From: Armatimonadota bacterium
Lineage (GTDB): Bacteria > Cloacimonadota > Cloacimonadia > Cloacimonadales > TCS61
DNA length: 51,571 bases
Direction: 5' to 3'
Assembly: GCA_013203665.1 (NCBI GenBank)
Contig: JABMPU010000136.1
Coordinates: 1-51,571 of the forward strand
This document shows positions 13,955 to 48,199 of this stretch, one piece after another. Under the pieces are notes generated by a model. That model saw nothing but the letters and a program-made list of their open reading frames with translations, had not been told where the DNA came from and did no database searches. The first letter of the stretch is position 1, and every line of letters starts with the position of its first letter. A program made the translations under genes and the position numbers.

Positions 13955-16291
13955 TTACTTAATCAAAGCAAAATCCAGGACTTCATCTACTTTATCTACC
14001 AATATGATGTTCAATCCTTTTGTGATTTCCTTCTGAATTTCAGATAGATTAGGTTCGTTTTTTTTTGGAATTATCACATTGGTAATTTTTGCTCTTTTCA
14101 CGGCAATCAGCTTTTCCGCAAGACCTCCGATTGGCAACACATTACCGGTCAAAGTAATTTCTCCGGTCATTGCTAAATTGTGTTTAACTTTTTTCCCGGA
14201 TAAGACAGATAAAATGGCTGTAACAATGGTTATTCCTGCAGAGGGTCCGTCTTTCTGAATTGCACCTTCGGGAATGTGCAAATGTAAATCAATTTTTTTA
14301 TAGAAGTCATCATTAATCCCAAATTTTTTAGCATGAAGCCGAGCATAACTATATGCAGCTTGTGCAGATTCCTGCATCACATCACCTAATTGACCTGTAC
14401 GTTTGAGCTTTCCTTCACCTTTAAATTTAACAACTTCAATTTGCAGAGTTTCCCCGCCAAAAGCAGTCCAAGCCAATCCTGTTACAACTCCCACAGCGTT
14501 TTTTCTGTTGACTTCTGAGTAAAGATGTTTTGGAATTCCCAGATATTCTTCCAGGTCTGAACTTTTGATTAAGACTTTATTCTTTGCTTTTCCTTCCACA
14601 AATTTCTTCACTACTTTCCTGAGGATTTTGGCAATTTGACGTTCCAAACTCCGAACACCAGCTTCCCTTGTGTAAAGTTTAATGATCTTTTCAATAGAAG
14701 ATTTTTCGTATTTCAAACTAATTTTATCATTCACATCATGTTCGGTTAGTACTTTTGGGATTAGATGTTTCCAGGCAATTTCAATTTTTTCAAAAGCAGT
14801 GTACCCAGGAAGTTCAATAACTTCCATTCTATCGAGAAGTGGTTGGGGAATGGATGATAATGTGTTTGCAGTGGTAATAAAAATTACTTGAGATAGATCA
14901 TACGAAAAATCGAGATAATGGTCACGGAAACTGTTATTTTGTTCCGGGTCTAAAACTTCCAGCAAAGCAGAAGCAGGGTCACCGCGAAAATCCATGCTCA
15001 TTTTATCGATTTCATCCATCATAATAAGCGGATTTCTGGTTCCGGCTTTTTTCATACTTTGAATGATAACGCCGGGCAGAGCACCAATATAAGTGCGTCT
15101 ATGCCCTCGAATTTCTGCCTCGTCGCGAACACCGCCCAGCGATAATCGCACGAATTTTCTATCCATTGCTCGAGCAATAGATTTTCCTAACGAAGTTTTG
15201 CCTACTCCGGGAGGTCCTACAAAACAAAGAATCTGACCTTTAACTTTGTTTGCCAGTTTCACAATTGCCAAATATTCCAGGATGCGTTCTTTCACTTTAA
15301 CCAAACCATAGTGGTCATCATCGAGGATTTGTTGAGCTTTTTTCAGATCAAAACTTTTTGCTATCGGTTCTTGCCAGGGCAAATCTAAAATCCAACTCAG
15401 GTAAGTATGAACCACTGAATATTCAGGAGAAAAACTATTCAGCCTGGCAAACTTTACCAGTTCTTCCTCTGCTTTCTTCTTGGCTTCTTCACTCAGGTTC
15501 GTTTCTTTTATTTTTTTCTTAAAATCGATTAAATCAGCTTTATCTTCTTTGGTTATGCCAAGCTCTTTATGAATTGCTTTTAATTGTTCCGTGAGATAGT
15601 ATTCTTTCTGAAGTTTGTTTAACCTGCTTTTTACGCTACCATCGATCTTCTTCTCCAGTTTTAAGATTTGGATTTCTTCATTTACAATACGATAAAGTTC
15701 TTTTAGAGATTCATAAAGATCGTTGGTTTCAAACAGTATTTGTTTCTTCTTAATATCGAATTGAATATTTGCTAAAGCAAAGTAGAAAAAATCTGCGGGT
15801 TTAACAGTTTCGCTCAAAGGCATTAACGCTTCTTCCGGAATGGCTTTATTCAAATTTATGTATTGCATGAAAGCTTTTTTAAAAGAGCGGACTAAAGCTT
15901 CGATTTCTAATTTGGTTTTTTCTGTTGTTATGCTTGAAATCCCAAAATAAGCGTATAAATAATCCTTGTTTCTATAATATCTGTTTATACTAACACGATG
16001 ATTCCCTTCCACTAATAATCTCATATTTCCATCAGGAAGCCGAAGAACCTGTATTATTGTGCATAATGTTCCCATTCTGTATAAATCTTTTGCTTTGGGA
16101 TCTTTATCAAGATCAACATTTGATTTTTGTGTTACGCAAAGTACTTTGTTGTTGCCGGTCAATGCACTTTCAGCAGCTCTGATAGATGCTTTCCTTCCAA
16201 CAAGAAGCGGTGTAATTGTGTTTGGTACAACTATCGTATTTCTTATTGGAACAACCGGATACATTCCATAGTTAGATTCAGTATTAGCCAT
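13955..16291 (-). CDS. lon: ATP-dependent protease Lon (LonA)
   Basis: 778 aa; LON N-domain 'MYPVVPIRNTIVVPNTITPLLVGR', Walker A 'GPPGVGKTSLGKSIA', catalytic 'IQKDGPSAGITI' and C-terminal Lys region. Confidence 0.97.
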   Translation of the reverse strand: MANTESNYGMYPVVPIRNTIVVPNTITPLLVGRKASIRAAESALTGNNKVLCVTQKSNVDLDKDPKAKDLYRMGTLCTIIQVLRLPDGNMRLLVEGNHRVSINRYYRNKDYLYAYFGISSITTEKTKLEIEALVRSFKKAFMQYINLNKAIPEEALMPLSETVKPADFFYFALANIQFDIKKKQILFETNDLYESLKELYRIVNEEIQILKLEKKIDGSVKSRLNKLQKEYYLTEQLKAIHKELGITKEDKADLIDFKKKIKETNLSEEAKKKAEEELVKFARLNSFSPEYSVVHTYLSWILDLPWQEPIAKSFDLKKAQQILDDDHYGLVKVKERILEYLAIVKLANKVKGQILCFVGPPGVGKTSLGKSIARAMDRKFVRLSLGGVRDEAEIRGHRRTYIGALPGVIIQSMKKAGTRNPLIMMDEIDKMSMDFRGDPASALLEVLDPEQNNSFRDHYLDFSYDLSQVIFITTANTLSSIPQPLLDRMEVIELPGYTAFEKIEIAWKHLIPKVLTEHDVNDKISLKYEKSSIEKIIKLYTREAGVRSLERQIAKILRKVVKKFVEGKAKNKVLIKSSDLEEYLGIPKHLYSEVNRKNAVGVVTGLAWTAFGGETLQIEVVKFKGEGKLKRTGQLGDVMQESAQAAYSYARLHAKKFGINDDFYKKIDLHLHIPEGAIQKDGPSAGITIVTAILSVLSGKKVKHNLAMTGEITLTGNVLPIGGLAEKLIAVKRAKITNVIIPKKNEPNLSEIQKEITKGLNIILVDKVDEVLDFALIK

Positions 16292-16501: not shown

Positions 16502-17587
16502 TTAATAGCTTTTAAACAGTTTTCCCCATTGATTTTCTTTTATCCATTTATTCACAACTCTTTTCCCTTTAATGGGATACCAGAGCCAATCGTGATAGGC
16601 AGCAGAGGCAAAAACAAACAAATAAACCAAAGGAGTGTGAAACAGCATCTTTTGTAAAATCTTTAATGGTGAATTCCACAATAAGCGACCAGCACCGGTT
16701 GCAAAATTTACTCCAACTTCAAAATGCCAGTTTTCATTGGCAATATCTTCATCACCGACAATTTCAATTTGACTAGTATCGGCAGTTCCCAAACCCAGTT
16801 CGTGTGCTTTGGCAGTACAGCGAATTTTCATAGGATCAAATCCCATAATTTTGGCAGCAACAGCATCTATAGCTACCATATCTGAGGAGGCTAAAATAAT
16901 ATTTTTCTCATGCGGAATAACAGTTCGCGGTCCAGGACCTGAACCTGCAGTTGTTCCATCCATTATGGCAAAAAGTCCGGAATGAATCTCTTTCTGAATA
17001 GCCAGAAGATCAATTAGAGTATCATGAATCCAGGTATGAGAATAATGCCGCTTTGTATTTAATAGACCGCCAAAAGCATTTTTCAGAGCACCGGTAAAAG
17101 TTGTGTACGAATGTGTCTTCACAGTGGGAAGATGTATGATATTCTTATCGATGAAATATTCTGGGATTTTTATTCCTTCGGGAAAGATTTTATGAAGAGC
17201 AAGCAGCTTATGTTTTGGTTTGTAATCTATCCATTCTATCTCATCTTTTCTGAAATTGTATAATGTTGGAATGTTATATTTTTCATAAACCTGGATATAT
17301 TTATTGAGTTTTTCTCCTTTAAAAGGATTAGTAACAACCGTATTATTATGAACATCAACGATGTCTGAAAATCCGTTTTTTTGGAGAGCTTGAATAGTTC
17401 CTTCTAATTGCCAGGGAGTAGTATTTACACCGGGATAAAGATAATGCCAGGTGATATTATCTTTCAAAATTGTTTTTTTAGATGGATCTAATGCTTTTTT
17501 TATACCTGCCAATTTGCACAACTTAACATAATCATCAATCACTGTTTTTGGTGTTGTCCGCAGGATAGCAACTTTTGCTTTTTTCAT
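16502..17587 (-). CDS. DUF362 domain-containing protein
   Basis: 361 aa; 'VAILRTTPKTVIDDYVKLC', 'IIHLPTVKTHSYTTFTGALKNAFGGL', 'VAIDAVAAKIMGFDP' are typical of DUF362. Confidence 0.8.
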   Translation of the reverse strand: MKKAKVAILRTTPKTVIDDYVKLCKLAGIKKALDPSKKTILKDNITWHYLYPGVNTTPWQLEGTIQALQKNGFSDIVDVHNNTVVTNPFKGEKLNKYIQVYEKYNIPTLYNFRKDEIEWIDYKPKHKLLALHKIFPEGIKIPEYFIDKNIIHLPTVKTHSYTTFTGALKNAFGGLLNTKRHYSHTWIHDTLIDLLAIQKEIHSGLFAIMDGTTAGSGPGPRTVIPHEKNIILASSDMVAIDAVAAKIMGFDPMKIRCTAKAHELGLGTADTSQIEIVGDEDIANENWHFEVGVNFATGAGRLLWNSPLKILQKMLFHTPLVYLFVFASAAYHDWLWYPIKGKRVVNKWIKENQWGKLFKSY

Positions 17588-17617: not shown

Positions 17618-17980
17618 TCACCTAAAACTGGCTACTAACCAGACTCCGGTAAGAATCAAAAAAAGACCTAAAATCTGTAAAGGAACTAATTTCTCACTTA
17701 AGAAAAAAATAGAAAAAGAAACTACTATTATAAAACCGATGCTTGTCATAAGCGGATAAGCAATACTGAGATTTATTTTGTTTAAAACATAACTATAAGA
17801 AATCAAAGCAAATGCAAACGATAGAATTCCAATTAGGACGTGCACACTTTTGAACATTGCCAATATCAAATGAAAAGCATTAAATGATTCAAACACTCCA
17901 ATTCTGTTCATCCCGATCTTTATCAAAATATTTGCACACGCATTGAGTATAATTGCGATTGCTAAAATTAGATATACCAT
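17618..17980 (-). CDS. SMR/EmrE-like four-TM transporter, ArnE-type flippase candidate
   Basis: 120 aa, four hydrophobic helices; 'ILNACANILIKIGMNRIG', 'SIAYPLMTSIGFIIVVSFSIFFLSEKLVPLQILGLFLILTGVWLV'. Confidence 0.75.
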   Translation of the reverse strand: MVYLILAIAIILNACANILIKIGMNRIGVFESFNAFHLILAMFKSVHVLIGILSFAFALISYSYVLNKINLSIAYPLMTSIGFIIVVSFSIFFLSEKLVPLQILGLFLILTGVWLVASFR

Positions 17981-18024
17981 ATCTATCTCCGATTATATTT
18001 GAATTTAATCTGTAATGAAAAAAG

Positions 18025-18891
18025 TTACTGGAAAAATGCGATTATCACAATTACAGCAACGAACCATAATATTGAAGTAAATAAAATATGTTTATCTCGT
18101 AGCATTTCCTTCTCTGGTTTTGCTCCACCTTTTTCCTTGAAAATAATGTATAAATATCTAAAAATTCCATACAAAACAAATGGAACAGTAAAAATTAAAT
18201 GATTAAAATTCTCATTTAAGATTGTGTAAAGCGAATAGGATATTATTGTTAGAGAAGCAACAATTCCGATCATCTGATTCAATAATGTTTCATTATAATT
18301 AGTAATTACTTTTCTAGTTAAATTGTTTTTATCCATTTCATAAGCCATATACTCTTCCCGCCTTTTGGCAATAGCTAAAAACAAAGCTAACAAGATTGCA
18401 CAGATCAACAGCCATTCTGATATATTAACTCCAATCGCCAAACCTCCTGATAAAACTCTTAAAACAAAACCTATTGAAACTATAAAAATATCAATTAGCA
18501 CAACATGCTTCAATTTCCACGAATAAAATATATTCAAAACCAGGTAAACTAAAATTATGATAAAAACATATTTATTTACTAAAATCAGAGATACCAAGCA
18601 GGATGCAATTATTAGAAATAGATAGGCAATTATGGCTTGATTTCCAGTTATTCTGCCAGCAGCAATCGGGCGATGTTTCTTCGATAAATGCAGAGAATCC
18701 TCTTTTTTATCAAAAATATCATTTAAAAAATAAACTGCACTAGCTGCCAGGCAGAAAGAAAAAAAAACCCAAAAAGTAAGAATTACATTCTCAAATTTCA
18801 GAAACTTTTGAGCAAATATTAATGCTGAAAAAACAAATATATTTTTGGAATAATGCGAAGGACGAGCGGTTTTTATAAAATCTTTAATCAT
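18025..18891 (-). CDS. UbiA family prenyltransferase, decaprenyl-phosphate phosphoribosyltransferase (DPPR synthase)-like
   Basis: 288 aa; 'FIKTARPSHYSKNIFVFSALIFAQKF', 'VYFLNDIFDKKEDSLHLSKKHRPIAAGRI' (NDxxDxxxD plus KKxRPIAAG). Confidence 0.85.
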   Translation of the reverse strand: MIKDFIKTARPSHYSKNIFVFSALIFAQKFLKFENVILTFWVFFSFCLAASAVYFLNDIFDKKEDSLHLSKKHRPIAAGRITGNQAIIAYLFLIIASCLVSLILVNKYVFIIILVYLVLNIFYSWKLKHVVLIDIFIVSIGFVLRVLSGGLAIGVNISEWLLICAILLALFLAIAKRREEYMAYEMDKNNLTRKVITNYNETLLNQMIGIVASLTIISYSLYTILNENFNHLIFTVPFVLYGIFRYLYIIFKEKGGAKPEKEMLRDKHILFTSILWFVAVIVIIAFFQ

Positions 18892-19789
18892 GAAGTTCTC
18901 CTGCGATAATTGAGGAAATATCTTTTATAATAATTTTGTTGGATTTCAGTTTGGATGCTAAATGAATGGAATTTGTAGTATAAACGTTTTTAATATTTTT
19001 ATTATTTATAAAATCTGGAACATTGTTCATGAACGAATGAGTGGCAAAAATGTTTATCTTACAACCCGGATTTGTAGCTGAAACATATTCAGTTATCTTT
19101 TTTAAGGTGTTACCGGAACAGATTTCATCATCGATTAAAACAATCTCCCCAGCTTTTTTTATTATTTCATCTAATTCCGCATTTGACTTGATAACCACTT
19201 TTTCCTGATGATTTATTCTCTTTTTATCAAAACAAAATCCTTGGATTCTGAATTGTGAACAAATTTTATCAACTCGTTTTTTACTTCCTCGATCAGGTCC
19301 AATTACAATTGTATTTTCATGAATTATTTTTTTGAATTCCTGGGCAAAAATAATTTCCTGTTCGATAATATGAAGTTCAGCCTTTAATCCGATATCCTGA
19401 TTTTGAAAATGAGAATCACAACAACAAATCCGTTTAATATCATATAAATTCAAATGCTCAACAATCATAAATAGATTCGCTGTTTGATTCTTATGAATAT
19501 GATTTGTGCGGCTGTAAGGAAAATAGGGAAAAAATAGACTTTTAATTGCGATTTTATTTCTCTTAAAATAATCTAAAAGAAAGAATAATCCGCAAAGTTC
19601 TTTATGAAGATTCGATGATAAATCAGCAATTATATTAATATCTTCGATAACTGTATCCTCATCAAATGAATAAATGAAGTTATCATTGCTGAATTTATGT
19701 TCACGATATTTCAGAATAGATTTTGAATGTTTTTCGAAATTTTTCAGTAATGATGTTTCATCACCAATTAAAACAATATGATTAAGCAT
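18884..19789 (-). CDS. Divergent ribose-phosphate pyrophosphokinase (PRPP synthetase) family protein
   Basis: 301 aa; 'LFFPYFPYSRTNH', 'CDSHFQNQD', 'TIVIGPDRGSKKRV', PRPP loop 'EIVLIDDEICSGNTLKKI'. Overlaps the UbiA gene by 8 bp. Confidence 0.82.
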   Translation of the reverse strand: MLNHIVLIGDETSLLKNFEKHSKSILKYREHKFSNDNFIYSFDEDTVIEDINIIADLSSNLHKELCGLFFLLDYFKRNKIAIKSLFFPYFPYSRTNHIHKNQTANLFMIVEHLNLYDIKRICCCDSHFQNQDIGLKAELHIIEQEIIFAQEFKKIIHENTIVIGPDRGSKKRVDKICSQFRIQGFCFDKKRINHQEKVVIKSNAELDEIIKKAGEIVLIDDEICSGNTLKKITEYVSATNPGCKINIFATHSFMNNVPDFINNKNIKNVYTTNSIHLASKLKSNKIIIKDISSIIAGELHD

Positions 19790-19873: not shown

Positions 19874-20659
19874 TTATTCCTCATCAGGTTTCGGAGGTTC
19901 TTCCGGTTGTTGATATAGTTTAAAATACACGATACGATTATGCCTGAATTCCAATTCAACACCTTCATCGGTTAAGCTGGGGATTTCTCCGTGAGCGTAA
20001 ATTTGTAACTGTTTTGGATTAATTCCGGTTTTAACCAGATAATTATAAATTGTATTGGCTCTTCGAGTGGATAGATCGATATTATAATCGTATGTGCCAC
20101 GCTCATCGCAATAACCATGAATAGCAAGAATATATGTTTTGTTTTTATCTAAAATCTCAGTTATTTCATGAACTTTCCACTTTTCTTCTTCCTTAAAATC
20201 ATCCTTATCAAAATCGAAATAAATGATGGGAAAAGCATAAGGTATTCTTTGAATAATCGGTATTTTTTCCACAATTATTCTGTCCGGAATATCTCCTTCT
20301 TCCTCTTCCAAATCCGCACTGATTTTTGGTTTAAAATCCATATAAATTGTCATTTTATCCGGAATAGGAGGAATTCGGAGATAGATGTTTTGCGGAATTT
20401 GATTTGGATACATCGGTTCTGCTTTAATGTTTATCGACGTATCGTGAGCATACCATAAATCCGTTTTAATGGGTGTAATACCGAGATATTGATCATCAAT
20501 ATAAATCTTTGCTTTTGTCGGTTGAGAACGTATTAAAATCCGGGCTTTATGCACACCTCTTGGAATTGTTTCAATTATATGAACTCGAGCGCAACCAATA
20601 AATGAATATAACAAAAGAATTAAAAAAAGTATCCTAAAAAAAGTCTTATTTGTTTTCAT
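19874..20659 (-). CDS. Lipoprotein with PEGA and OmpA-like peptidoglycan-binding domains
   Basis: Lipobox 'LYSFIGCA'; PEGA 'ILIRSQPTKAKIYIDDQYLGITPIKTDL'; OmpA-C 'AIHGYCDERGTYDYNIDLSTRRANTIYNYLVKTGI'. ATG at 20659 has GGAG upstream; ORF track starts at 20677. Confidence 0.85.
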   Translation of the reverse strand: MKTNKTFFRILFLILLLYSFIGCARVHIIETIPRGVHKARILIRSQPTKAKIYIDDQYLGITPIKTDLWYAHDTSINIKAEPMYPNQIPQNIYLRIPPIPDKMTIYMDFKPKISADLEEEEGDIPDRIIVEKIPIIQRIPYAFPIIYFDFDKDDFKEEEKWKVHEITEILDKNKTYILAIHGYCDERGTYDYNIDLSTRRANTIYNYLVKTGINPKQLQIYAHGEIPSLTDEGVELEFRHNRIVYFKLYQQPEEPPKPDEE

Positions 20660-20684
20660 TTTTTCTCCATTTTTCATAAGTTTT

Positions 20685-33411: not shown

Positions 33412-35139
33412 CTATAAAATCTCTTTATCCTCATTCCAACTTGGAAGCTCATAACAGGGTGAATATGGAATAATAAGTCTTTTCTTAACATCTAATAAGT
33501 AATAATTATGTTTAGGATATGATGCAAGTAATTCTTTATTTCGACCTAGCAAGCTGCGTGCATAAATAATCGAGCCATCCAGATTCACATTATTAAGCTG
33601 AAAACCAGCCATATACGGGTAAATGCGCTTCTCATCGGGATTACTTATCAAAACAAGAGCCGGTTTTTTTACAGATTGTGTAACAAGATTTTCAATGTTG
33701 TATAAAACTCCTCTTTGATGAAAAATTGAAAACCTTGATGGAAGAACACCTAATATCGAAATCAGCAAAGTTGTAATCCAAAAAATAAATATAAATTTTA
33801 CTATTATAACTTTTGTATTTTTACTTTTTGGAAATAAATAGTTTGGTAAAATCATCAAACCTCGTCCCGAAGTAGCAAGCATCAAAGGAAAAAGTTCAAA
33901 ATAAAAACGAGGACCGTAGCTTAATCCATGATTTCTATACAATCCATATCCTATTATGTAAAATACTGTCAATAAACATATTGCTTTTGACCTATTTTCG
34001 CGTGAAAACAGGTAAACAGAAAAAGGGAGCAATGAAAGTAACGGGATACCAAGTAAATCTACTGAAAGACCAGTTAGATTGATCAAGGTGTTTTTTATAG
34101 TATGAACACCCAAGCCGATTGTTTCGTTTGGTAGAGCAATTTGATGTGGAGTAACAAATGGATTTCCGGTTAAACAGAAATTATAGCCTAAAAATAATGT
34201 TATAAACGGTAATATTCCTATTACCACTAATGATAAAAAGCTATAAATTTTTATTTTCAGATGGTTATGCTTTGCCCGTAAAATCCAATAGAAACATGTA
34301 AATATTACTAAAATCAGAGCTGAAAAAGGACGGCAGAGCAGCACCATACCACAACATAATCCTATGCCCAAAGGTTTCCATCTATCGGATAAATTACAAT
34401 TCAATATCCAGACCACTGCAATTGTAAAAAAAATCGCTGTTAAGATATGAGAAAAATAGCTCGCTCCTTGAAAAAGAACAAAGGGTGACAAAATCATGAA
34501 TGCACCTGAAATCAGGCCTACAGATTTACTGAAAAGTCTGGAACCTGCCCATACTGTAACAATGAGTAATATGGCTGTCAAGATAGGATTAATAGCATAA
34601 CTTATCCCTAAGAGCACTCCAGGAGTTAGAATCAGGCTGTGACCGGGGAAAAAGGAGCCAAACCATTTTTCACTCGTTAGCACAATGAGTCTCAAATTGA
34701 AAAAATCTCCGGATACAACCGGAGGATTAACCCACAATTTGCCCGCAGCAAACAGCTTAGCTTGGAAGAGATAATTAGCTTCATCCCATATATGAGCTCG
34801 CGTTTTAAAAACAAGAATACAAATAAGAATACATTCAACAAAAATAATAAAAGAAAGAATAGTTGTTATCCCAATCGGTTTATTCTTCATCCTTCTTATT
34901 TTAATGATAACAGAATCAAAGAGACGAGATAAAGATTTGTTATATTTAGTTCGGATTAATACAGATCCGATCAGAATAGTTGCAGGTAAAAGGATCAGAA
35001 TATCACGGAAATATATTATACCTTTGTAGTCAGCAGGTCTTAGTGGAAGCAAGTATTCCCAAATCGAACGACCAATTAGCAGTAAAAAACCAAGAATTAA
35101 CAAAAGTAATTGGTTGAGTGTGAATTTGTGTGTATTCAT
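33412..35139 (-). CDS. GT-C type (GT39/ArnT-like) membrane glycosyltransferase
   Basis: 575 aa polytopic; 'AHIWDEANYLFQAKLFAAGKLWVNPPVV' first periplasmic loop with acidic D-E, 'GSFFPGHSLILTPGVLLGI', 'GPRFYFELFPLMLATSGRGL'. Confidence 0.75.
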   Translation of the reverse strand: MNTHKFTLNQLLLLILGFLLLIGRSIWEYLLPLRPADYKGIIYFRDILILLPATILIGSVLIRTKYNKSLSRLFDSVIIKIRRMKNKPIGITTILSFIIFVECILICILVFKTRAHIWDEANYLFQAKLFAAGKLWVNPPVVSGDFFNLRLIVLTSEKWFGSFFPGHSLILTPGVLLGISYAINPILTAILLIVTVWAGSRLFSKSVGLISGAFMILSPFVLFQGASYFSHILTAIFFTIAVVWILNCNLSDRWKPLGIGLCCGMVLLCRPFSALILVIFTCFYWILRAKHNHLKIKIYSFLSLVVIGILPFITLFLGYNFCLTGNPFVTPHQIALPNETIGLGVHTIKNTLINLTGLSVDLLGIPLLSLLPFSVYLFSRENRSKAICLLTVFYIIGYGLYRNHGLSYGPRFYFELFPLMLATSGRGLMILPNYLFPKSKNTKVIIVKFIFIFWITTLLISILGVLPSRFSIFHQRGVLYNIENLVTQSVKKPALVLISNPDEKRIYPYMAGFQLNNVNLDGSIIYARSLLGRNKELLASYPKHNYYLLDVKKRLIIPYSPCYELPSWNEDKEIL

Positions 35140-43667: not shown

Positions 43668-45686
43668 TTATTGTTTCCTATAAGGGATTTTTATTACAGT
43701 CTCGTTGATCTCACCAAATCTCTGTTTTGTAACTTCCGATGCAATTGTGTAAATAACGAATAATCCTCTTCCCGATTCATCCAACAGTTTTTCATCAGGA
43801 AAGTATTTGCCGTCTTCTCGAACCGGTGGTAAAGACCAGTCTTTACCTTTATCCCAGATTGTTAATTCCAGTTCATTATCCTCTGCTAACCGAATCATTA
43901 TCATACTATCGGATTTGCTCATCAAACCGTGCCGTATTATGTTGTTCAAAAATTCATCTACAATCAATTCAATATGCGAAGCGAATTTCCTGTCATGAAA
44001 TTTTTCATAAATAAATTGCTCGCAATTGATGGCAACTTCACCGGCTTTTTCAAGAAGTGCTTTCAGCACAAAAGACCTTTTTATCTCATCCTTTTTTTCC
44101 TGAGGAATTTTCCTGATGGTCATCAATGTGAAGTCATCAGAACTGATATCATAATCCAGATCGATCAGTTTCTTTTTGATTTTTTGAGGAAGAATTATCG
44201 AATTAAAATTATGAATATTATTGGATATGAATTTCGCAAAACCATCGATTCCAAGTTGTTCGCCGGATTTATTATAACACTCAAAAATACCATCTGTGTA
44301 TAAAAAAATTACCATATTTTCATTGATATTAAAAACATCTCCTTCTTCAGGAGGAAACGCATAATCTTCGTGCCAGCCGATTGGAATCGAACCCTTTTCA
44401 GAAAGAATTTTTGCTTTTCCATTTTGAATATCATATAAAATAATGGGAGGGTGTCCTGCATTGTAATAAGTAATTGTGTTTTTTTTCAGGTCAACCAGGC
44501 AGAGAATGATAGTCAGAAAATTTATATCAAAAAGTCTTTTACTGAGAATGTCATTTAATCTATTTAAGATAAGAGATAATTCAAGTTTTTCTTTGGCAGC
44601 TTCGATAATCATTGAAATAGTTGATTTCACAGCAGTCATCAAAATAGCAGCTTGCACGCCATGACCGGAAATATCTGCCACATAGGCAACATACCTGGAA
44701 TCGGAAATTTGAATAATATCCAGCAGGTCTCCTCCCAATTTTCTGGAAGGTGCATAGGTAGATGTGAAAATAACTTCATCGCCTTTAACCATCCAATTTG
44801 GAAGCATATAAGATTGAACCGATGATGCAACTTCAATTTCCTGTTCTAATTCTTCATGTTGTCGTTTAATTTTTTGTTCTGCATTCTTACGAAAGGAGAT
44901 ATCCCTTAATATTCCAATTGTATGCCATTCATTTTCAATATTAACGGATGAGACAGAAAATTCCAATGGAAATTCCGAACCGTCCTTTTTCTTCGCTATC
45001 AGCTCCAGTGTTTTACCTTTTGTATGGTTTTCTTTAGTTTTACGGATTTTTTCAAATGCATCAAAAAAGTCCTGCTTATATTTGGCTGGAGCTATTTTTT
45101 CGTAAAGATTTTTTCCCAGAACATCTTTTTTGGAATAATCAAATATCTCTACTGCTGCCGAATTCCAATATGTTATTTCATTTTTTTTATTTATCATAAC
45201 AATTGCATCATAAGCAGATTCTGTGATTGCCCGAAATTTATGTTCGCTTTCCATAAGTGCCTGTTCGGCTTTTTTTCGCTCTATTTCTTCTTGTTTGATT
45301 TTCTTTTCCAATAAGATGATTTTAGCGAATTTTTCTACTTCCTGAAGTAATTTTTTCCTTCTTATCGGTTTGATGAGAAAAGCATTTACACCCTTTTCAA
45401 TGGCATTAAGAATATTTTCTGCTTCACTGTAACCGGAAATGAAGATTGTGATTACCTGGTTATCTATTTGCTTAATTTTATCAATTAATTCCAGCCCGTT
45501 CATTTTGGGCATAAAAACGTCTGCTAAAACCATATCAGGTCTGTACTTAATATATTTTTCCAATCCTTCTTCACCATCTGCTGCTATATAAACGTTCTTC
45601 ACCCTGGAAGTTAAAAATTTTGTGATTGAATCCCTGGAGATTTTTTCATCTTCCACATATAAAACAGAGATATCTAATAAATCCAT
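43668..45686 (-). CDS. Response regulator REC-PAS-PP2C (SpoIIE/RsbU-like) with C-terminal RsbW-like HATPase
   Basis: REC 'VLYVEDEK...VLADVFMPKMNGLELI...FLIKPIRRKKL'; PAS; PP2C 'KLGGDLLDIIQISDSRYVAYVADISGHGVQAAILMTAVKSTI'; HATPase 'ELIVDEFLNNIIRHG...TIWDKGKDW...GRGLFVI'. ATG 45686 with AAAGGTGG; track start 45734 lies in a repeat. Confidence 0.9.
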   Translation of the reverse strand: MDLLDISVLYVEDEKISRDSITKFLTSRVKNVYIAADGEEGLEKYIKYRPDMVLADVFMPKMNGLELIDKIKQIDNQVITIFISGYSEAENILNAIEKGVNAFLIKPIRRKKLLQEVEKFAKIILLEKKIKQEEIERKKAEQALMESEHKFRAITESAYDAIVMINKKNEITYWNSAAVEIFDYSKKDVLGKNLYEKIAPAKYKQDFFDAFEKIRKTKENHTKGKTLELIAKKKDGSEFPLEFSVSSVNIENEWHTIGILRDISFRKNAEQKIKRQHEELEQEIEVASSVQSYMLPNWMVKGDEVIFTSTYAPSRKLGGDLLDIIQISDSRYVAYVADISGHGVQAAILMTAVKSTISMIIEAAKEKLELSLILNRLNDILSKRLFDINFLTIILCLVDLKKNTITYYNAGHPPIILYDIQNGKAKILSEKGSIPIGWHEDYAFPPEEGDVFNINENMVIFLYTDGIFECYNKSGEQLGIDGFAKFISNNIHNFNSIILPQKIKKKLIDLDYDISSDDFTLMTIRKIPQEKKDEIKRSFVLKALLEKAGEVAINCEQFIYEKFHDRKFASHIELIVDEFLNNIIRHGLMSKSDSMIMIRLAEDNELELTIWDKGKDWSLPPVREDGKYFPDEKLLDESGRGLFVIYTIASEVTKQRFGEINETVIKIPYRKQ

Positions 45687-45723
45687 GATTGCCACCTTTT
45701 CTACTTTTATAAAAATCTTCTTT

Positions 45724-45792
45724 CTCGTTCCCACGCAGGTTGTTTTTATTTCTTGTTCCCACGCTACTCAGCCTGTCCTGCGTGGGAACGAG
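45724..45792. repeat. Inverted repeat, 16-bp perfect arms, with a third internal partial copy
   Basis: CTCGTTCCCACGCAGG (45724-45739) and CCTGCGTGGGAACGAG (45777-45792); internal 'TTGTTCCCACGC'. Confidence 0.85.
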
Positions 45793-45814
45793 TTCCATCC
45801 TTTAAAATTACGCA

Positions 45815-48199
45815 TTATTTCTTTTCATATTCAATTATGATTGTGGTTTCGTTTATTTCATCATAACGAGACCTATGTACTTTTGTGGCTAAAGAATATA
45901 TTAAGAAAACACCGGTTAATTCTTCTCCAAAAACATTTTCTTCAGTTTTTTTCTTATCTGGAATTACCCAGTTTATACCTTTATCCCACAAAGTCAATTT
46001 AACAACTTTGTCAATTTCGATTTGGAACAAAATGGTTGCATCGGGTTGATCTTTGAGTGAATGAAGAATGATATTATTCAAGAGTTCATTGATGATTAAT
46101 TCGATTTTGGCAGCGAATTGTATATCATCAAAACACTCTAAAATCATTTTTTCACATTGAGCACGAATCCTTTTTGTATTAACCAGAACCGAACCGATCA
46201 AAAAGAGTTTTTTCGATGTCTTTTCAGGTTCTAATAGATTTTTCTTTAAGGCAATTAAGGTGAAATCGTCCAAACTGATATCATACCCTTTTTCAACTAA
46301 TTTGGTTTTAATCTTATACGGAATAACAGCCAGATTATCATCAGAAATATTTTTTCCAAGAAGTTCTACAAAACCCTCCAAGCCAAGCTGTTCGCCTTTT
46401 TTATCTTCGCATTCAAATATGCCGTCAGTATATAAAAATGTAATTTTATTTTCTTCGGCAGAAAGTATATCTTCCTCATTTTTCATGTAAATTATTTCTG
46501 GATTCCAACCCATCGGGATCGAGCCGATTTCAGATGCCAAAGTCGCTTTATTATCTTTCTTGTCATATTGAATAACCGGAGGATGTCCTGCATTGAAATA
46601 ACGAATTGTATTGTCCTCCAAATCTACTAAAGCCAGCAGTAAAGTCATATAATTGCGATACAGAAGTTTCTCGCTCAAAATAGAATTTAGTCTATTCATA
46701 ACTCGGTAAGGTTGGATATCATTCTTTTCACTATCGATTATCATATTTATCGTAGATTTTATAGCAGTCATCAATAAGGCAGCTTCCACACCATGACCGG
46801 AAATATCGCCAATATAAACTACATATTGAGTATCCGAGATTTTAATAACATCAAAAAGGTCACCGCCGATTTTAGTGGAAGGTGTATAATTGGATGAGAC
46901 AATTAGATTATCTTCCAGCATCAACCATTTTGGCAGCATCAAAGACTGGGCAGATGAAGCAATATCGAGTTCAGCCATGATAGAACTGTATAATCTTTTT
47001 ATTTTTTCATCAGCTCTTTTTCGTTCAGTGATATCTTTATAAAAAGCGAATCTACCAATGATATCACCTGCTTCATCATAATAAAAAGCTGAACTGGTAA
47101 CGCTTACGTATATTTCTTCCATTTTTTTATTCAGCAATTTTATATCAAAATGATCGTTGATTTTTGTAAGATCACGATGGATTTCATTTTGTACAACACC
47201 TTCAGCATCGAGGGTGGCAAAATCAAAAATTGTTTTACCGAGAATCTCATCTCGAGGATATCCAAGGATATTGCAAAGAGAACTATTGATTTCGATAAAG
47301 CCTTTTTCCGGCAATGTGATGCCAAAACCTTGAGTCGTTAAATTTATGACCTCTCTGTATTTTTCTTCGCTTTTACGAAGTTTGCTTTCCATAATCTTAG
47401 ATTCGGTTCTATCACGAATGATGCTGACAATATTCCATTCACCTTGAATGACAACTGAAGAAAGAGAAAACTCGATGGGAAATTCCGCACCGTTTTTTTT
47501 CAAACCTGTAAAATCCAATGTTCTGCCAGCAGTAGCATCCTCTTCACCTTTTTCCAGAAAATGTTTAAGATTCCTATCAAAAATAGTTCTCGAAGGGGAA
47601 GAAATTATTGTATTACCCAGATTTTTTCCGATAACTTCATCACTTCGATATTCAAAGATGGTTTCTGCAGCTTTATTCCAATAAATGATATTTTCTGCTT
47701 TATTCATCATAATGATGGCATCGTTAGCAGAAGTGCTGATCGCACGAAATCTTTCTTCACTATCGGTAAGCGCCTCTTCTGTTTTCTTTCTTTCCAATTC
47801 TTCAGCTTTAAGTTTTTTACTCAAAGTTTTTGTTTCGCCATATTTACGGATTAAAGCACTCAGTTTTTTTCTTCTTACAGGTTTTAATATGAAACTATCA
47901 ACTCCCAGATCGATAGCTCTCATGAAAAATTCCGATTCGCTGTGAGCAGAAGTGATGACAATATTAACATGTTTATCGATTTCCTTGATTTTTTCAATCA
48001 TCTCAAGTCCGCCCATAATGGGCATTTTGATATCAGTAACCACCAGGTCCGGTTTATATTTTTTATATAGTTCCAATCCTTCCATACCATCTACTGCTGA
48101 ATAGAAATCAACAACAATATTATTTATGATTGAACTTAAGGAATCCCTGATGATCTCTTCATCTTCTACATATAAAACTGATATTTCATATTTTTCCAT
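45815..48199 (-). CDS. Response regulator REC-PAS-PAS-PP2C with C-terminal degenerate RsbW-like HATPase
   Basis: 794 aa; REC 'VLYVEDEEIIRDSLSSI...VVTDIKMPIMGGLEMI', PAS x2, PP2C 'KIGGDLFDVIKISDTQYVVYIGDISGHGVEAALLMTAIKSTI', HATPase N-box 'ELIINELLNNIILHS'. Confidence 0.9.
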   Translation of the reverse strand: MEKYEISVLYVEDEEIIRDSLSSIINNIVVDFYSAVDGMEGLELYKKYKPDLVVTDIKMPIMGGLEMIEKIKEIDKHVNIVITSAHSESEFFMRAIDLGVDSFILKPVRRKKLSALIRKYGETKTLSKKLKAEELERKKTEEALTDSEERFRAISTSANDAIIMMNKAENIIYWNKAAETIFEYRSDEVIGKNLGNTIISSPSRTIFDRNLKHFLEKGEEDATAGRTLDFTGLKKNGAEFPIEFSLSSVVIQGEWNIVSIIRDRTESKIMESKLRKSEEKYREVINLTTQGFGITLPEKGFIEINSSLCNILGYPRDEILGKTIFDFATLDAEGVVQNEIHRDLTKINDHFDIKLLNKKMEEIYVSVTSSAFYYDEAGDIIGRFAFYKDITERKRADEKIKRLYSSIMAELDIASSAQSLMLPKWLMLEDNLIVSSNYTPSTKIGGDLFDVIKISDTQYVVYIGDISGHGVEAALLMTAIKSTINMIIDSEKNDIQPYRVMNRLNSILSEKLLYRNYMTLLLALVDLEDNTIRYFNAGHPPVIQYDKKDNKATLASEIGSIPMGWNPEIIYMKNEEDILSAEENKITFLYTDGIFECEDKKGEQLGLEGFVELLGKNISDDNLAVIPYKIKTKLVEKGYDISLDDFTLIALKKNLLEPEKTSKKLFLIGSVLVNTKRIRAQCEKMILECFDDIQFAAKIELIINELLNNIILHSLKDQPDATILFQIEIDKVVKLTLWDKGINWVIPDKKKTEENVFGEELTGVFLIYSLATKVHRSRYDEINETTIIIEYEKK

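Follow-up and report, generated by a model that had tools for sequence, protein, structure and literature searches.

The window (the whole stretch of DNA analysed, 51,571 nucleotides) contains a long polysaccharide locus whose genes include Wzx-, Wzy-, export- and glycosyltransferase-like ones. Three co-directional genes at its end encode a divergent PRPP-synthetase-like protein (PRS-like), a UbiA-superfamily protein and an SMR/EamA-type protein. All three lie where an earlier note on this DNA had put them, and the PRS-like gene and ubiA share 8 bp (18884-18891), as stated there. Two further genes, one downstream of the SMR gene and one 14 kb from the module, go beyond the set described there:

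16502..17587, minus strand: DUF362 protein (PF04015), possible fourth gene of the cassette
17618..17980, minus strand: SMR/EamA-type four-helix protein (120 aa), proposed flippase of a lipid-linked pentose
18025..18891, minus strand: UbiA-superfamily protein (288 aa; with NDIFDKKEDSLHLSKKHRPIAAGRI), predicted polyprenyl-phosphate phosphoribosyltransferase of the DPPR-synthase/PPPRS type
18884..19789, minus strand: PRS-like protein (301 aa; with VLIDDEICSGNTL), divergent PRPP-synthetase paralogue, proposed dedicated PRPP supply
33412..35139, minus strand: GT-C-like protein with multiple TM segments (575 aa), proposed to act as pentosyltransferase

The module is flanked by a Pal/OmpA-like lipoprotein gene (19874-20677) and, beyond the DUF362 gene, which starts 30 bp past the SMR stop codon, by a Lon-protease-like gene (13955-16291). 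Among 125 genomes of the phylum the DUF362 gene is found in the window genome only, and is missing from its congener G071. Pfam domains above cut-off are Pribosyltran_N and Pribosyltran (PF13793/PF00156) in PRS-like, UbiA in the UbiA ORF, and both Multi_Drug_Res (PF00893; 29.4 bits, cut-off 23.7) and EamA (PF00892) in the SMR protein, where a Kyte-Doolittle scan finds four hydrophobic segments, bearing out its previous description as a four-TM SMR-like protein. A scan for promoters and terminators gave nothing in excess of shuffled sequences. Upstream of the polysaccharide locus (43668-48199), two adjoining genes encode paralogues of 688 and 794 aa that resemble response regulator-PAS-phosphatase proteins.

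The UbiA protein exceeds the cut-off of NCBIfam NF008977 (‘decaprenyl-phosphate phosphoribosyltransferase’; 264.1 bits, cut-off 234), as do the UbiA proteins of two other phylum genomes, G101 and G107, and its score for this family is far above those for all NCBIfam quinone/heme families. Its sole matches among all PDB sequences are 8j8j and 8j8k (Rv3806c type), over residues 4 to 286. Eight residues singled out by the Rv3806c structure and by Citrobacter mutants (PMC10994848, PMC11127046) are kept in the window UbiA and in all seven aligned homologues: K28, Y70, N73, D74, D77, D81, Y138 and K191 of Rv3806c correspond to K16, Y54, N57, D58, D61, D65, Y123 and K176. In Rv3806c K28, Y70, N73, D77, Y138 and K191, as well as D74 and D81, provide contacts to PRPP, Mg and the lipid phosphate (PMC10994848). 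The K/R cluster that holds pyrophosphate in Rv3806c (Arg22, Lys87, Arg90, Lys143; PMC10994848) is conserved as read off the alignment, and Tyr157 of Rv3806c is replaced by Phe, also present at this position in some mycobacteria (PMC10994848). Because the NF008977 cut-off is exceeded, the PDB matches are of the Rv3806c type only and the contact residues are retained, the protein is, from its sequence, a DPPR-synthase-type UbiA with predicted phosphoribosyl transfer, in agreement with the earlier note, and neither of the refuting outcomes named there (placement with menaquinone or heme enzymes; a sole housekeeping PRS without module conservation) was seen. A menaquinone/ether-lipid function was rejected on the PDB matches and on the presence of two further UbiA proteins of the genome in contexts fitting such roles. 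A small UbiA tree had little resolution (no branch starred) and was set aside as evidence. At a separate locus (L003; G000:C193:23427-27116), polyprenyl synthase-like, UbiA-family and GGGP-synthase-like genes are consecutive, which suggests archaeal-type ether lipid genes in the window bacterium.

PRS-like reaches 96.2 bits against TIGR01251 (PRPP synthetase; cut-off 113), so that its description as divergent holds, and its G101 counterpart reaches 108 bits. Its best PDB matches are PRPP synthetases (E 1.4e-11), which also come first, with low TM-scores, in a PDB fold search using a single-sequence model (pLDDT 60). The protein has the two-domain layout, the R5P/Mg residues and the flexible-loop K-R pair of bacterial PRPP synthetases (TIGR01251), but differs from them in clade-specific RTNH and DDEICS motifs and a shortened C-terminus, as well as in its sub-threshold score. 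It is an additional copy rather than the sole housekeeping PRS of the genome, a possibility rejected by the presence of one ordinary PRS on a separate contig (C31). PRS matches were identified in 111 of the 125 phylum genomes, nearly always a single ordinary copy at 20–28% identity; the PRS-like type is restricted to the window genome, G071 (80% identity) and G101 (43%), and these three proteins form one clade on a very long stem (PRS tree, 100/100). A tblastn search of plasmids with PRS-like gave no match, and a contig scan with the same query yielded two ordinary PRS genes only.

Residues R96, H131, D170, K194, R196, D220 and D221 of E. coli PRS are retained in PRS-like and in members down to 43% identical, K194 and R196 being presumably the flexible-loop K-R pair. 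The nucleotide-binding motif RQDR is changed to RTNH (Q97T, D98N, R99H), with R(T/S)NH across the three members, and D224C and T225S (DDEICS motif) are common to all of them (most residue roles as in PMC6332680 and PMC9232217). D37N, E39N and Q97T are also seen in the organism’s own housekeeping PRS, and are therefore no sign of inactivity. We infer a specialised PRS paralogue, which may be catalytic. The earlier proposal that an operon-encoded PRPP source feeds synthesis of a polyprenyl-P-pentose is supported in part: the UbiA type, the paralogue status and the conservation of the module all stand, while PRPP synthesis by PRS-like itself is still a prediction, given RTNH in place of RQDR.

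UbiA of this type is present in three of the 125 phylum genomes (window genome, G101 and G107), two of which also carry PRS-like, itself found in three (chance P ~0.001). In G101, from another genus of the same family, genes for PRS-like, UbiA and SMR (~43%, ~54% and ~31% identity to the window proteins) occur in the same order, within a unidirectional run of touching or overlapping genes: HAD phosphatase (YqeG-like) – PRS-like – UbiA – SMR – SDR epimerase – GtrA – GT-C-like. The genes around the module are otherwise different from those of the window, and recurrence of the PRS-like/UbiA overlap and of the downstream SMR gene argues that the arrangement is more than chance. G107 has UbiA – HAD – SDR – GtrA – GT-C-like, without PRS-like. 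Purifying selection acts on both PRS-like and UbiA when the two genera are compared (dN/dS 0.25 and 0.20, respectively; dS near saturation). In G071, a degenerate ubiA 5′ end of ~60 bp directly follows the PRS-like gene, and the slot occupied by ubiA, smr and the DUF362 gene in the window holds other genes instead. The Pal-like/lon-like slot of this genome (L010; G071:C186, 1651-6749) includes genes for a PMT_2-type GT-C protein, methyltransferase-like, GT2-like and WecB-like proteins and an LPG-synthase-TM protein, and surface-sugar cassettes seem to be exchanged at this site.

A scan of 16 DPPR-synthase loci outside the phylum, drawn from plasmid and phage records, found no PRS near UbiA in any of them. 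Partners in these loci include PAP2, HAD or PHP-domain proteins, DprE1-like oxidases, SDR, GtrA, EamA/SMR or LPG-synthase-like membrane proteins and GT39, the SDR being 42–49% identical to that of G101. In four haloarchaeal plasmid loci (L030, L065, L069 and L071) the DPPR synthase is near an SDR 47–49% identical to the G101 protein and, where annotated, adjoins a PHP-domain protein and a membrane protein resembling LPG synthase, possibly a recurring archaeal pentofuranose module with PHP as its phosphatase. A 6.6-kb record deposited as an unverified bacteriophage (L073; MT837543.1) carries DPPR-synthase-type UbiA, SMR-like and SDR-like genes and is probably bacterial DNA. The SMR counterpart in G101 also resembles the EamA/SMR genes next to DPPR synthases in L025 and L073. 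The best NCBIfam match of the window SMR protein is ArnF, at 40 of 99 bits far below the equivalog cut-off, and it is proposed to flip the lipid-linked pentose. ArnE/ArnF, which act with ArnT in lipid A Ara4N modification, are likewise SMR-type four-helix proteins proposed as polyprenyl-P-pentose flippases, but the Arn donor derives from a UDP-sugar rather than PRPP, and the window has a single SMR gene.

No glycosyltransferase had been named for the module, and a candidate now emerges from the comparison with G071. The GT-C-like protein has ~10 hydrophobic segments, one of them followed by an IWDEANY motif; in GT-C enzymes, an early TM helix is followed by an acidic motif (PMC11127046). Among the phylum genomes its gene is present in the window genome and G071 only, and in the latter it has a ~1.04-kb internal deletion (~window 33801-34841) that disrupts the frame between flanks of 92–93% identical DNA, on the same contig as the changed ubiA slot. 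Since loss of ubiA and this deletion correlate in G071 (a single congener genome, a MAG 80% complete), the GT-C-like protein is nominated, on topology, motif and correlated loss, as the missing glycosyltransferase of the system. It has no match in Pfam, NCBIfam or PDB, or with a home-made GT39 profile. A comparison among nine sequences gave weak pairwise similarity to a haloarchaeal GT39 (E 3e-4 to 2e-3), which was not relied on, and a single-sequence AlphaFold model (mean pLDDT 43) was discarded.

Queries with DprE1 gave only partial matches to the N-terminal FAD part (43-175 of 449; E ~1e-7) in the window genome (93% complete) and no match in G101 or G107. The SDR epimerase of related DPPR loci likewise has no orthologue in the window genome, the matches found (~30% identical) being like general sugar epimerases. 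As there is neither a full-length DprE1-like match nor an SDR-epimerase orthologue in the genome, ribofuranose is the likelier sugar in the window organism, by analogy with Citrobacter, where ribofuranose is made without such an SDR and xylofuranose with it (PMC11127046). This favours the earlier suggestion of a ribofuranosyl rather than arabinofuranosyl product; in G101 and G107 the sugar is perhaps xylofuranose. In the G101 and G107 loci a HAD protein is a phosphatase candidate; the G101-type HAD has no orthologue in the window genome, which encodes just two weak PAP2 proteins on other contigs.

Our preferred reading, to which we give odds of about two in three, is that the genes form a three-component system that adds pentofuranose outside the cytoplasm and has a PRPP-synthetase paralogue of its own. 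PRS-like would make, or help deliver, PRPP at the membrane, UbiA would move 5-phosphoribose from PRPP onto polyprenyl phosphate, a phosphatase would strip the 5′-phosphate, the SMR-type protein would flip polyprenyl-P-ribofuranose to the periplasm, and the GT-C-like protein would hand the pentose on to a glycan, probably the EPS/O-antigen-like polysaccharide of the same locus. The system is supported by the family score and retained contact residues of UbiA, by its co-occurrence with PRS-like, by the gene runs of G101 and G107, by the phosphatase, epimerase, flippase and GT39 partners of DPPR synthases elsewhere, and by G071, where PRS-like is followed by a degenerate ubiA 5′ end and the GT-C-like gene is disrupted. 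Against it are the missing G101-type HAD, with PAP2 proteins weak and unlinked, and a GT-C-like protein with neither a family or structure match nor a usable model. Nucleotide-site changes in PRS-like and its persistence in G071 without UbiA weaken the case for strict dependence between the two.

That persistence (at dN/dS 0.25, compared with 0.09–0.19 in neighbouring genes), UbiA without PRS-like in G107, and a slot that is clearly exchangeable, with quite different genes in G071, could also indicate a chance or transient cassette whose PRS-like and UbiA proteins do not work together; we consider this improbable, as order and overlap are the same in G101 despite different surroundings, both genes are under purifying selection and their co-occurrence exceeds chance. 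More of a contender, though still doubtful, is that PRS-like is a weak or dead pseudoenzyme that makes no PRPP itself and binds the housekeeping PRS, tuning it or recruiting it to the membrane near UbiA. The very long stem and the changes at the nucleotide and loop sites shared by all three members (R(T/S)NH, D224C, T225S) would fit, but H131, D170, K194, R196, D220 and D221 all survive at just 43% identity, and D37N, E39N and Q97T are shared with the housekeeping enzyme. Human PAP39 and PAP41 are catalytically weak or dead PRS pseudoenzymes, and both are found among the many PRS matches of the fold search, which however fails to set PAPs apart from active PRPS. In eukaryotes, PRPS pseudoenzymes alongside an active copy are recurrent (PMC13252144).

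D224C and T225S in the ribose-5-phosphate loop, with D98N and R99H in the nucleotide motif, are also compatible with a paralogue specialised for the lipid-linked pentose route, a reading to which we attach little likelihood. Such a paralogue would either hand PRPP straight to UbiA in the membrane or activate another pentose-5-phosphate; if the latter were true, UbiA would make a non-ribose polyprenyl-P-pentose without an epimerase. It is unlikely that, before flipping, an epimerase encoded elsewhere in the genome turns the lipid-linked ribose into arabino- or xylofuranose: DprE1/E2-like pairs or an SDR epimerase adjoin DPPR synthases in many loci, an SDR is present in the relatives G101 and G107, and the Citrobacter SDR ORF13 converts ribose to xylose (PMC11127046), but the best matches to DprE1 in the window genome, which is 93% complete, are limited to the FAD part and SDR matches resemble general sugar epimerases.

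The proposed pentofuranosylation system has known counterparts. The mycobacterial DPA pathway comprises Rv3806c, Rv3807c, DprE1/DprE2, Rv3789 and Emb/Aft, and shares with the window an Rv3806c-type UbiA with its active-site residues, a small membrane protein as flippase and GT-C transferases (candidates for both in the window), while the window differs in having no DprE1 or Rv3807c-type neighbour, no arabinan locus and a PRS inside the module. Three-component pentofuranose systems have been described as widespread by Kelly et al. 2024 (PMC11127046), including that of Citrobacter youngae O1/O2, with ORF15 (PPPRS-PRP), a MATE flippase and a GT136 GT-C enzyme. As in Citrobacter, a polysaccharide locus of the window encodes a phosphoribosyl-lipid synthase of the same type, a dedicated candidate flippase and a candidate GT-C protein with multiple TM segments, and DprE1/E2 are unnecessary for ribose. 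In contrast, the window flippase is SMR/EamA rather than MATE, UbiA lacks a PRP phosphatase domain, the GT-C-like protein matches no profile, and the PRPP-synthetase paralogue is unmentioned in PMC11127046. The pathway type has been described already; the dedicated PRS-like gene, lacking in the 16 DPPR-synthase loci scanned outside the phylum, and the lineage are new.

The module would add an uncultured lineage to those with the pentofuranose side-chain pathway, and through its own PRPP-synthetase paralogue the assembly of surface glycans would be tied to a central precursor of nucleotides. G071, with ubiA lost and the GT-C-like gene disrupted, provides a natural comparison that nominates a glycosyltransferase missed by profile searches.
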